Shown piece by piece: positions 56,142 through 60,948 of a stretch of 64,000 bases of DNA (within the stretch, counting starts at the first letter, position 1; each line of letters opens with the position of its first letter). The notes below the pieces were generated by a model. That model did not search any database and had not been told where the DNA came from. It saw only the letters and a list, made by a program, of their open reading frames with translations. Made by a program: the position numbers and the translations under genes. This DNA comes from Pseudomonadota bacterium (GTDB lineage Bacteria; Pseudomonadota; Alphaproteobacteria; Acetobacterales; Acetobacteraceae). The DNA lies in the NCBI GenBank assembly GCA_021846225.1, contig JAJZCG010000002.1, positions 35,940 to 99,939 of the forward strand. The letters are read 5' to 3'.

Positions 56142-57374
56142 TCAGGTCAGCTTCACCAGAACATGGTGCTTCTTCCCGGCGGAGAGCTTCATCTCGGCCG
56201 CCGGCGCGATCATCTGCGCCTCGCCGTCCACCACCTCATCATTCAGCCGCGCGCCGCCGCCGCGGATCAGCCGCCGCGCCTCGCCATTGCTGGCGGCCAG
56301 CCCCGCGCGGGCAAACAGCGCGAACGCCGCCATCCCGGCGCCAAACTCCGCCGCCGGAATCTCCACGCGCGGCAGACCTTCGGCCACGCCGCCCTGGCTG
56401 AAGATTTTATGCGCCGTTGCCGCCGCATCCGCCGCCGCCGCGCGGCCATGCGCCAGCGCGGTTGCCTCGGTCGCCAGAATCACCTTGGCGCCGTTCAGCT
56501 CCGCCCCGCCCAGCGCTTCCAGCCGCGCGATCTCATCCAGCGGCAGATCCGTGAACAGTTTCAGGAAGCGGCCAACATCCGCATCCTCGGTGTTGCGCCA
56601 GAACTGCCAGTAATGATACGGGCTCAGCTTTTCCGCCGAGAGCCACACCGCGCCCGCCGCCGACTTGCCCATTTTCGCGCCCGATGCCGTGGTGATCAGC
56701 GGGGTCGTAAGGCCAAACACGCCCTTCTGGTCGGTCCGGCGCACCAGGTCGACTCCAGAGACGATATTGCCCCATTGGTCGGAGCCGCCCATCTGCAAAA
56801 CAACGCCGTACTGGCGGCTCAACTCACGGAAATCATAGCTTTGCAGAATGGAGTAGTTGAACTCCAGGAAGGTGAGCCCCTGCTCACGCTCCAGCCGCGA
56901 GCGCACGGAATCGAACGAGAGCATGCGGTTGACGGAGAAATGCACCCCCACTTCGCGCAGCATCTCGATATAGCTCAGCCGGTCCAGCCAGTCGGCATTA
57001 TTGACCAGCACGGCATCATTCGGGCCGTCGCCAAAGGTGATGAACGCCTCGATGTTCGCGCGGATGCCGATGAGGTTTTTGGCGATCTGCTCGCCGGAGA
57101 GCAGCTGGCGCGCCTCCTCGCGAAAGGAGGGATCGCCGATCCGCGTCGTCCCCCCGCCCATCAGCGCCACCGGGCGGTGTCCATGCTTCTGGAACAGGCG
57201 CAAAAGCATAATGGGGATCATATGCCCGACATGCAGGCTCTCGGCTGTCAGATCGAACCCGGCATAACCCGCAATCGGCCCCGCGGCGCAGGCGGCGTCG
57301 AGCGCCTCCTCGTCGGTGCACTGAAACACAAAGCCGCGCGCCTTCGCCTCGGCCAGAAACTCACTAACTGCCAT
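56142..57374 (-). CDS. tyrS: Tyrosyl-tRNA synthetase
   Basis: TyrS charges tRNA-Tyr. The 410-residue protein has the class I signature HVGH ([11 protein letters not shown], near residue 47), the KMSKS equivalent KMGKS ([10 protein letters not shown], near 234), tyrosine-pocket residues in [21 protein letters not shown], and a C-terminal S4 RNA-binding domain with [16 protein letters not shown]. Length is typical. It is transcribed divergently from a GT87 gene, 36 bp apart. Confidence 0.97.
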
Positions 57375-57410: not shown

Positions 57411-58685
57411 ATGACAGTTCAAAACCTCGCAATCTGGCAGCGCCTGCAAAGCGGCAGCTGGCTGACCCGGGAGCGCGTGCGCGGCTATCTGGCGCTGCTC
57501 GCCATCGCCAATCTTATCGGCCTTGCACTCGCGATATGCCGGGGGACCGGCTGGCTGTTTTCCCCGGTGCCGCATTTTTCAACTGAGTTCCTGAGCTTTT
57601 ATGCCGCCGGGCGGCTGGCCGCGGCGGGCCATGCGGCCTTGGTGTATGCGCCGGGCATTCCCGCCCATGCGTATATTGCCTCTTTTCATGTTCCTCCCGG
57701 GCATCAGGCGATGGAACGCGCGCTGAGCCACGATCCCCAGGTGATGTATTTCAGTTTTTTCTATCCCCCGGTTTATTGGCTGCTCTGCGCGCCGCTTTCA
57801 CTCTTGGCGTATTACAGGGCCTATCTGCTCTGGGTGGGGCTGAGCGGCGCTTTGCTGTGGTGCTGCCTGCGCCAGATGATGGGCGGCTGGCTGCGGGCAT
57901 GGCCGGCCCTTGCTTATCTCGCCATAACCGAGAACGCGGCCGTCGGCGAGAATGCGTTTTTATCCACCGCGCTCGTGGGATTTGGCCTGCTCAACCTGGA
58001 AAAACGCCCGCTCCTCGCTGGCGCCTGCTTCGGCGCGCTCTGTTACAAGCCAAACTTCGTTCTGCCGGTGATCTTGCTGCTGCTGACTGGCCGGCATCTG
58101 GCCGCTCTGGTGAGCGCCGCATTCACCGGTACAGCACTTTGCCTGCTTTCCGCCGTTTTGTTCGGGTGGCGGAACTGGCTCAGCTATTTTCTCGTCACCG
58201 TGCCGCATGCCCAGTTCCTGTTCACCCATGGCGGTTTTTCCTACGCGCTCATGGTAACACCCGGTTCGGCTGTCCGCCTGCTGGGCGGCGGCGGCGTGCT
58301 GGCGGCGGTGGTGCAGGCCGGGGGCATGCTGTTTGCCGCCTATTGCATTTACGCCGCGCGCCGGGCCAGTTTCAACGTCAGGGCGGCAATGTTCGCCGCC
58401 AGCTTCCCGATGCTGCTTACCGTGATGCTCAGCTACGACCTGACCATGAGCGGACTGGCCATCCTCTACATGCTCCGCGAAGTAGAGCGCACAGCCTATC
58501 GGCCGTGGGAGAAAACCGCCCTGGCCGCGATGTTCGCGCTGCCCCTGGTGACCGAGGTTTTCCGTACCCAGCTGCATATCCCGCTGGATCCGCTGATCAC
58601 CCTTACCTTCATGGCGCTGCTGCTGCGCCGCGTGGGGCCCGTTGCCATGTTCGCCACGCCGCCAATGCGACCACTACAGGCGTGA
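57411..58685 (+). CDS. GT87-family (DUF2029-like) membrane glycosyltransferase
   Basis: The 424-residue protein has about nine predicted membrane helices and matches polyprenyl-phosphate-dependent GT-C enzymes of the GT87/DUF2029 group. The first periplasmic loop carries TEFLSFYAAGRLAAAGHAALVYAP, with an acidic residue after the first helix, and YPPVYWLLCAPLSLL in the family position. A GALCYKPNFVLPVILLL segment is shared with the frameshifted paralogue next to it on the other strand. The gene's last 77 bases overlap the end of that paralogue. Confidence 0.82.
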   Translation: MTVQNLAIWQRLQSGSWLTRERVRGYLALLAIANLIGLALAICRGTGWLFSPVPHFSTEFLSFYAAGRLAAAGHAALVYAPGIPAHAYIASFHVPPGHQAMERALSHDPQVMYFSFFYPPVYWLLCAPLSLLAYYRAYLLWVGLSGALLWCCLRQMMGGWLRAWPALAYLAITENAAVGENAFLSTALVGFGLLNLEKRPLLAGACFGALCYKPNFVLPVILLLLTGRHLAALVSAAFTGTALCLLSAVLFGWRNWLSYFLVTVPHAQFLFTHGGFSYALMVTPGSAVRLLGGGGVLAAVVQAGGMLFAAYCIYAARRASFNVRAAMFAASFPMLLTVMLSYDLTMSGLAILYMLREVERTAYRPWEKTALAAMFALPLVTEVFRTQLHIPLDPLITLTFMALLLRRVGPVAMFATPPMRPLQA

Positions 58686-59843
58686 GCAGAACGCCGGTGG
58701 CGCCATACACCACAGGGCAGAGGGCTGGCCAAAGCCAGAAGATCACGTCCAGGAAATCAATGTACCAGCCGCGCGTTTGCGCGAGCATGGCAAGCGCAAT
58801 GGAGTATCCGACCATATAGTCGACACCTCCGTAAGGTGTCGCCAGCAAGGAGAGAAACGCGCACAGTGCTACCTTCTCTTGTGTCGGCATGAAGCTGCGC
58901 CAGGCCCGCCAAGTGAGCAACACCGCAGCCACGGAGACCGCACCCTGCAAAGCTTCGCTGACGGGCAATCCCAATTTCAATGATAGCGCCATATTGAAAA
59001 CTGACAGCCCGAACGCAGCAGAGCCGGGTATCAGCGGCAACGTATCAAGCATCAGCTTCGACATCGCCAAGCCGTTGCTGAGATAGGCATGCCAGACCGG
59101 CCAGCCGAATACAACGATACTGGCAAGGATCAAGAATAATCCCGCCCCACAGGCCGCGGCGATGGCGCGCCATCGCCGCGCGGCGAACAGCGCCACGGGC
59201 GCAAGCAGGACCATCTGCGGTTTAACAATGAGCCCCCCAGGACAACGCCAGAAAAACCCGGCCGCACCGCCGATGCCAAAAGCCCCGAGACGAGCGCTGC
59301 CCCGCACAGGACACCGAACTGGCCAAGCTCCAGACTCCAAAGCGCCGCCGGACTCAAAAGCCCCAAAATTATCACCCGCCGATCCAAACCGGCGATACGC
59401 AACATCCCGGCGGCAAGGAGAAGCACCGCCAGCGTCCACACCCAGAACGATACTTCAAATGGCAACCGCGAGAGCGGCTGCACGGCCAGCAAGGCTGGCG
59501 GCGGGTAAAACCAAAGGGGTGGATCAGCCTGTGCGGAAAACAAATTCCTTCGCAAGGCAAGAAACATCACCGGATCATACGTTGCGGCCGCACGGCCATG
59601 CGCGGCCATGACGCCCGCCTGCCAGAAAACAGAAAAATCGCAAAGCGGACTCGCGCATGGCAAATCCTGCACGCGCATCCCAGCAGGTGAATAATGCCCG
59701 GCACGGCTCGCCATATCGCGCAGAAAAACCACGCCATACCAGCCCCACCAGACAATCAAAGCCGGCCAGGTTGCGGCGCTGGAGATTATATTTCCGTATT
59801 GCTTAAGCCTGCCCAGAACAGCTTGCCCTTGAATGCTTTTCAT
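58609..59843 (-). pseudogene. GT87-like membrane glycosyltransferase interrupted by a frameshift at a C6 tract
   Basis: Two adjacent minus-strand frames together encode one GT87/DUF2029 protein. The N-terminal part runs from ATG 59843 (MKSIQGQAVLGRLKQ) through SVFWQAGVMAAHG and FYPPPALLAVQPLSRL to about 59240. The C-terminal part continues from GGLIVKPQMVLLAP to the stop at 58609. The frame changes at a run of six C (six G on the coding strand) at 59233-59238; a seventh would restore one frame, LGGLIVKPQ, of 411 residues. Sequencing error, true pseudogene or slippage are all possible. It overlaps the convergent GT87 gene by 77 bases. Confidence 0.75.
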
Positions 59844-59865: not shown

Positions 59866-60948
59866 ATGAAAAACAACTCAATCCGCGCCATCGGCCTGAT
59901 GTCCGGCACCTCGCTCGACGGCGTGGATGTCGCCTGGCTGGAGACCGATGGTGAGCGCATCACCCATTTCGGCCCCACCGCCATGCTCGCCTATGAGGAT
60001 TCGCTGCGCGCCGATCTGCGCCGCCTGCTCGACCTCGCCCCCACCCTCGCGCCGGATGATGCATTCCTGAAAGACGTGGAGCAGCGCCTCACATATGAGC
60101 ATGCCATCGCCATTGCGCTGGCCGGGCGCAATGCGGATGTCATCGGGTTTCACGGCCAGACCATTCTGCATGCCCCCGCGCAGCATCGCACCTGGCAGAT
60201 CGGCGATGCGGCCCAGCTGGCGCGGCTCGCGCGCATTCCGGTGGTGCATGATTTCCGCTCCGCCGATGTTGCCGCCGGGGGCCAGGGCGCGCCGCTGGCC
60301 CCGATCTTCCATGCCGCGATGGCGCATGACCTGCCCAAACCACTGCTGATCGTGAACATCGGCGGTGTTGCCAACATCACCTGGCTCGGCGCCCATGGGG
60401 AAATCCTCGCCTGCGACACCGGCCCCGGCAACGGCCCGCTGGATGATCTGGCGCAGGCGCATCTCGGCCTGCCCTATGACAAGGACGGCGCCCTGGCCGC
60501 TGCCGGCATTGTGGACGAGGCCCGGCTGGCCACGCTGCTGGCGCATCCGTATTTTAACAGACCGGCGCCAAAATCGCTGGACCGCCTCACCTTCTCGGCG
60601 CTTATCGCCCAGGCCACGGCGGCGCTGCAACCAGCGGACGCCGCCGCCGCGCTGGCCGCCTTTTGTACCCGCGCCATCGCCGCCGCGCCGCTGCCCGCGG
60701 CCCCGCTGCGTGTGCTGGTTGGCGGCGGGGGGCGCAAAAACCCGGTGCTGATGGCCGGGCTGCAAGCGCAATTCGCCGTGCCGGTGCAGCCGGTGGAGGC
60801 AGCCGGATGGGATGGCGACGCGCTGGAGGCGCAGTGTTTCGCCTATCTGGCGGTGCGCTCGCTAAAGGGCCTGCCGCTCTCGCTGCCCGGCACCACCGGC
60901 GTTGCCCGCCCGCTCACCGGCGGGCGGCTTCAGAAGGTTATTTTATAG
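59866..60948 (+). CDS. anmK: Anhydro-N-acetylmuramic acid kinase
   Basis: AnmK phosphorylates and hydrolyses 1,6-anhydro-MurNAc, returning it to peptidoglycan synthesis. The 360-residue protein has the ASKHA-type IGLMSGTSLDGVDVA, GFHGQTILHAP, the acid/base region ADVAAGGQGAPLAPIFH, NIGGVANITWLG, DTGPGNGPLDD and VGGGGRKNP. ATG 59866 gives the family start; an in-frame ATG 11 codons upstream is less likely. It diverges from the GT87 pseudogene 22 bp away, and its end overlaps the convergent next gene by 19 bases. Confidence 0.95.
   Translation: MKNNSIRAIGLMSGTSLDGVDVAWLETDGERITHFGPTAMLAYEDSLRADLRRLLDLAPTLAPDDAFLKDVEQRLTYEHAIAIALAGRNADVIGFHGQTILHAPAQHRTWQIGDAAQLARLARIPVVHDFRSADVAAGGQGAPLAPIFHAAMAHDLPKPLLIVNIGGVANITWLGAHGEILACDTGPGNGPLDDLAQAHLGLPYDKDGALAAAGIVDEARLATLLAHPYFNRPAPKSLDRLTFSALIAQATAALQPADAAAALAAFCTRAIAAAPLPAAPLRVLVGGGGRKNPVLMAGLQAQFAVPVQPVEAAGWDGDALEAQCFAYLAVRSLKGLPLSLPGTTGVARPLTGGRLQKVIL

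Follow-up and report, generated by a model that had tools for sequence, protein, structure and literature searches.

Is a glycosyltransferase gene that lies in two reading frames, broken at a short run of a single base, a gene that can be switched off and on, a gene that is being lost, or an intact gene that has been misread by one base? This question is raised by a locus in the window, the whole 64,000-nucleotide stretch of DNA that we analyzed, which comes from an Acidocella genome (G000; 2.69 Mb in 123 contigs, 98% complete, with the gene on contig C29). The first-pass annotation had placed a frameshifted GT87-like gene here and had proposed that slippage in the run could act as an on/off switch, with assembly error and real decay as its two alternatives. 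From the comparisons described below, we consider it probable that the broken GT87 gene is a recent null allele, an ordinary gene loss by one-base slippage in a slot where such genes turn over at a high rate.

The gene occupies 1235 bases of the minus strand, a length that is not a multiple of three, between an ATG at 59843 and the stop at 58609, and both the coordinates and the frames given in the first-pass annotation are correct (Table 1). The 5′ frame has 203 native codons before it crosses the CCCCCC run, which on the coding strand is GGGGGG within the codons CTG GGG GGC. Past the run, this frame reads foreign residues up to a stop at 59130, for a total of 237 amino acids, and the 3′ frame covers 59232 down to the stop at 58609. 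A longer ORF that begins with a GTG at 59439 only extends the open frame of the 3′ part. That the two frames meet at the run is borne out by the ORFs and by the alignment to the sister species, and a list of runs shows that it is the longest homopolymer of the gene, with all others being five bases or shorter. The adjacent GT87 protein of 424 residues is also present as described, and it is only ~28% identical to the broken one.

Table 1. The broken GT87 gene and neighboring features, in window positions.
Feature	Positions	Strand	Evidence
tyrS (tyrosyl-tRNA synthetase), left flank of variable GT87 slot, conserved	56142..57374	-	Pfam, slot comparison
Second GT87 gene, intact, 424 aa, divergent paralogue	57411..58685	+	Pfam; G009 and G016 show no syntenic counterpart
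77-bp tail-to-tail overlap between the two convergent GT87 genes, kept in sister	58609..58685		ORFs, sister comparison
3′ part of broken GT87 gene, begins LIVKPQ, ends at shared stop	58609..59232	-	Pfam GT87 profile 106-237; alignment to intact sister protein
6-base C run (coding-strand G run), meeting point of frames; 7 bases in sister	59233..59238	-	Alignment to L024, run list
5′ part of broken GT87 gene, C-x5-D-x3-FW motif, putative catalytic Asp69	59130..59843	-	ORF, Pfam GT87 profile 1-104, 26 conserved columns vs 36 homologues
anmK (anhydro-N-acetylmuramic acid kinase), right flank of slot, conserved, divergent from broken gene	59866..60948	+	Pfam, slot comparison

Each part of the gene can be assigned to the GT87 family in its own right. 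The 5′ part matches the Pfam GT87 profile (PF09594) with an E value of 1.5e-9 and 39.9 bits, and the 3′ part matches it with an E value of 5.2e-10 and 38.4 bits, both exceeding the curated cut-off of 25 bits. The two matches are separate and lie side by side on the profile, in keeping with the earlier claim that both halves are homologous to GT87. We then examined the 26 columns that are conserved in 90% of 36 homologues, and all of them are intact in the window copy, including Asp69 and the 3′ KPQ, except for one that deviates in the window copy and the sister alike. Asp69 itself is conserved in at least 90% of the aligned homologues (33 of the homologues). A search of plasmid records found no relative.

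The nearest relative among the genomes compared is Acidocella sp. MAG 20 (G011, contig NZ_JABEVC010000172.1), which was recovered by HiSeq 2500 sequencing and MEGAHIT assembly of an acid mine drainage metagenome (PMC8357290). Both G000 and G011 are draft assemblies, the latter a MAG, and one genome per species was compared. The sister gene (L024:2422-3657) aligns with the broken gene from end to end at ~94% DNA identity with a single gap, where the sister has a 7-base run and the window a 6-base run. This missing base is the only indel across the 10.5 kb shared by the two genomes (10,486 alignment columns, with lengths differing by one). The sister gene is intact and has 411 codons, so the 411-residue protein that a seventh C had been predicted to restore is exactly the sister's state. 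The other Acidocella homologues, which are 31–45% identical, all read G-x8-KPQ through the site in one frame. Because the sister and these homologues keep the G-x8-KPQ spacing of the uncontracted frame, the intact state is ancestral, and the alignments demonstrate at the level of sequence that the window allele is a one-base contraction of the run, from seven to six, in an intact ancestor. An intact orthologue in a close relative together with a disabling lesion here is the pattern by which a recent pseudogene is recognized.

How long ago the lesion arose can be judged from the rest of the gene. Between the two species, dN/dS is 0.30 in the N-terminal half and 0.35 in the C-terminal half (0.29 outside the 77-bp overlap), which indicates constraint on the gene over most of the period that followed the species split. 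The dN/dS of the broken gene is in the top 6% of 187 genes, for which the median is 0.11, so the constraint is weaker than on most. Within the overlap, the changes fall mostly at nonsynonymous sites of the broken gene (4 vs 1). We polarized the 33 amino-acid differences between window and sister with distant homologues, and 12 favored the window's residue and 17 the sister's, with 4 ties, which is at best a faint indication that constraint has relaxed. A search of both halves for further inactivating mutations relative to the sister found none. Thus, the gene does not behave as an old pseudogene, and the fixed pseudogene with additional lesions that had been considered at the outset does not fit. 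Since both halves still bear the signature of purifying selection and are free of other lesions, the event appears to be recent.

It might be argued that the two frames still yield a working product. Programmed −1 ribosomal frameshifting or transcriptional slippage on G GGG GGC would give the full-length enzyme, and the in-frame heptamer does fit the X XXY YYZ pattern, with a −1 slip restoring the downstream frame. However, this fit is the automatic outcome of losing one base from a 7-base run, and the slippery site is not conserved, as the sister and all of the homologues read straight through. In addition, the downstream fold is no better than that of shuffled sequences (z −1.15), a strong hairpin starts ~30 nt past the site, and no Shine-Dalgarno-like element is evident upstream. 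We therefore regard recoding as highly improbable. Even less credible is the idea of two separate subunits, with the 3′ part translated from its own internal start. The 3′ part does have an in-frame ATG 21 bases from its beginning (residue 211), but this ATG has no clear ribosome site ahead of it, the first frame ends ~90 bases beyond it, and every relative encodes a single chain.

Next, we considered whether the run is a contingency tract, with the glycosyltransferase being on at seven bases and off at six. In favor of this, the tract differs in length between the two sister species, so that the gene is in frame in one and out of frame in the other, and genes for glycosyltransferases are among the classic examples of phase variation (PMC6321876, PMC5953494). 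In Campylobacter, however, a poly-G length of 7 is the lowest cut-off used, switching has been shown at 8 or more, and 9–10 is typical (PMC6321876), so the 6 bases here and 7 in the sister lie below the length shown to switch. A G run this long occurs at the site only in the two sisters, while the other homologues have 2–6 and mostly 2–4, and other runs of similar length do not vary between the two species. Long G/C tracts are also not in excess in G000. In 1.01 Mb of this genome, we observed 65, 14, and 1 G/C runs of 7, 8, and at least 9 bases, where a second-order Markov model expects 61, 14, and 6 (the last comprising ~5 of nine and ~1 of ten), so run lengths are as base composition predicts. 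A literature search found no paper linking Acidocella with phase variation, and the one match concerns another genus. The break is in the gene's longest homopolymer, the site most exposed to chance slippage. Thus, of the switch originally proposed, the slippage event itself stands, with 7 bases in the sister and 6 here, while reversible switching is not supported by these run comparisons, and phase variation is a distinctly unlikely explanation; the comparison rests on two genomes, which by their nature cannot reveal reversibility.

The remaining alternative is that the real gene is intact and that one base was dropped in the consensus or assembly at the homopolymer. Sequencing and assembly errors tend to fall in homopolymers, and the apparent constraint on both halves and the absence of a second lesion are also what an intact gene would give. 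Moreover, according to the GeneTack authors, a frameshift that is validated by homology but stands as a singleton should in most cases be a sequencing error (PMC3711429). To judge how trustworthy runs are in this assembly, we used the comparison of ~1.0 Mb of G000 with 0.8 Mb of G011, of which 262 kb aligned at 94.5% identity. Runs of at least six bases have equal lengths in the two genomes in 41/42 cases for G/C and in 54/55 cases for A/T, which argues against a consensus error. Of the 188 long G011 genes compared, only the GT87 gene has a clear frameshift in the interior of its G000 counterpart, which speaks against a generally faulty assembly. Where indel lengths are not divisible by three, most of the indels are intergenic or fall in over-extended starts or antisense ORFs. 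One further pair, L066/L148, had a possible interior frame difference, and it was not counted because it contains in-frame stops and several compensating gaps that mark it as a spurious or poorly aligned ORF. Also weighing against an error, broken GT87 copies arose independently at the same slot in other genomes, as described below. As between a recent loss and a single consensus error, the surrounding data favor a recent loss, and we consider the error unlikely, though a serious enough prospect to keep in mind.

The setting of the gene bears on the same choice. We surveyed the interval between tyrS and anmK in those Acidocella species with contigs that reach far enough, and GT87 genes lie between the two in G000, G011, G009, G016, G012, G003, G049, G007, G021, and G041, with one or two copies per slot. 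Compared with G009, anmK is 91% and tyrS 94% identical at the DNA level; the GT87 genes of the slot are ~43% identical in protein, and their DNA can hardly be aligned. With G009 and G016 together, the GT87 DNA is too divergent for full alignment, whereas anmK and tyrS there are 88–94% identical. We looked for a counterpart of the second GT87 gene in the G009 and G016 slots and found none. Gene fragments are frequent in the slot. That of G009 also holds a C-terminal GT87 remnant of ~29 codons, and that of G007, a near-complete Acidocella genome in 10 contigs, has one intact GT87 copy and a second copy whose frame breaks near residue 320, at a place that is not close to a run of six.

Several other observations were made on GT87 copies in these genomes. 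The break in the split G007 copy (L008:903-2106; G007:C4:497983-499186) adjoins a GCGCGCGCGCG stretch, and this copy has 7- and 6-base G runs that are in frame. In the slot of G045, the first 48 codons of anmK lie between two GT87 copies (L168; G045:C31:92069-92212), apparently as the scar of a tandem duplication. A GT87 copy in G050, which is not placed relative to the slot, has an in-frame TAG near residue 150.

From this survey, the tyrS-anmK interval looks like a glycosyltransferase turnover slot, and the birth, replacement, and death of GT87 copies within it make a real loss likelier here than in an average gene. Loss of the gene would then have proceeded as follows. The common ancestor of the window Acidocella and its sister had an intact GT87-type polytopic membrane glycosyltransferase, and in the window lineage replication slippage would have cut one base from the gene's longest homopolymer, taking it from seven to six. 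Translation would cease to be native after 203 residues, ahead of the KPQ motif and all of the C-terminal membrane segments, and since the truncated protein would lack these, the copy should make no working enzyme. The slot, with its repeated swapping, duplication, and breakage of GT87 genes, would thereby have undergone a further loss. The selective reason for the turnover may be altered surface glycans, and loss of this enzyme was presumably tolerated or even favored. One could go further and propose that the slot is an unrecognized surface-glycan diversification locus of Acidocella, in which recombination swaps genes, slippage and decay toggle them, perhaps under phage pressure, and the 6- and 7-base alleles are standing on/off variation, but this is a long shot.

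By itself the frameshift is ordinary, being either a recent one-base loss in a large glycosyltransferase family whose members look expendable or a consensus error, and the turnover of the slot is of more interest. The value of the finding is modest: it points to a slot flanked by housekeeping genes in which the glycosyltransferases differ almost completely between species with flanks that are ~90% or more identical, and the tyrS-anmK interval would be well suited to studies of how the surface varies in an acidophile.

The broken gene can be compared with three known systems. The first is PimE, a mycobacterial GT87 enzyme that uses a polyprenol-phosphate-sugar, and both halves of the broken gene match the same Pfam family. 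The catalytic residue of PimE, D58, is in the first loop (PMC12041525), and Asp69 of the broken gene, likewise in the first periplasmic loop, is its putative equivalent. A sequence search of solved structures returned no match to the protein, PimE included, and an AlphaFold model of the intact sister protein has a mean pLDDT of 38.8, which is too low for use of its fold. By analogy, the encoded enzyme would use a polyprenyl-phosphate donor to add a sugar to a surface glycolipid or polysaccharide.

The second comparison is with the phase-variable glycosyltransferases of Campylobacter, Helicobacter, and Neisseria, in which the frame is likewise broken by one base within a poly-G/C run. Unlike the tracts in those genera, the run here is just 6–7 bases long and unconserved, and it lies in a genome with no excess of long tracts.

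The third comparison is with the GeneTack singletons, a class in which one lineage has one validated frameshift while its relatives are intact, as the result of either a recent indel or a sequencing error (PMC3711429). The broken GT87 gene fits this class on each of these counts. Unlike GeneTack singletons, however, it sits in a slot that holds other broken copies, and this tilts the interpretation toward a real loss.
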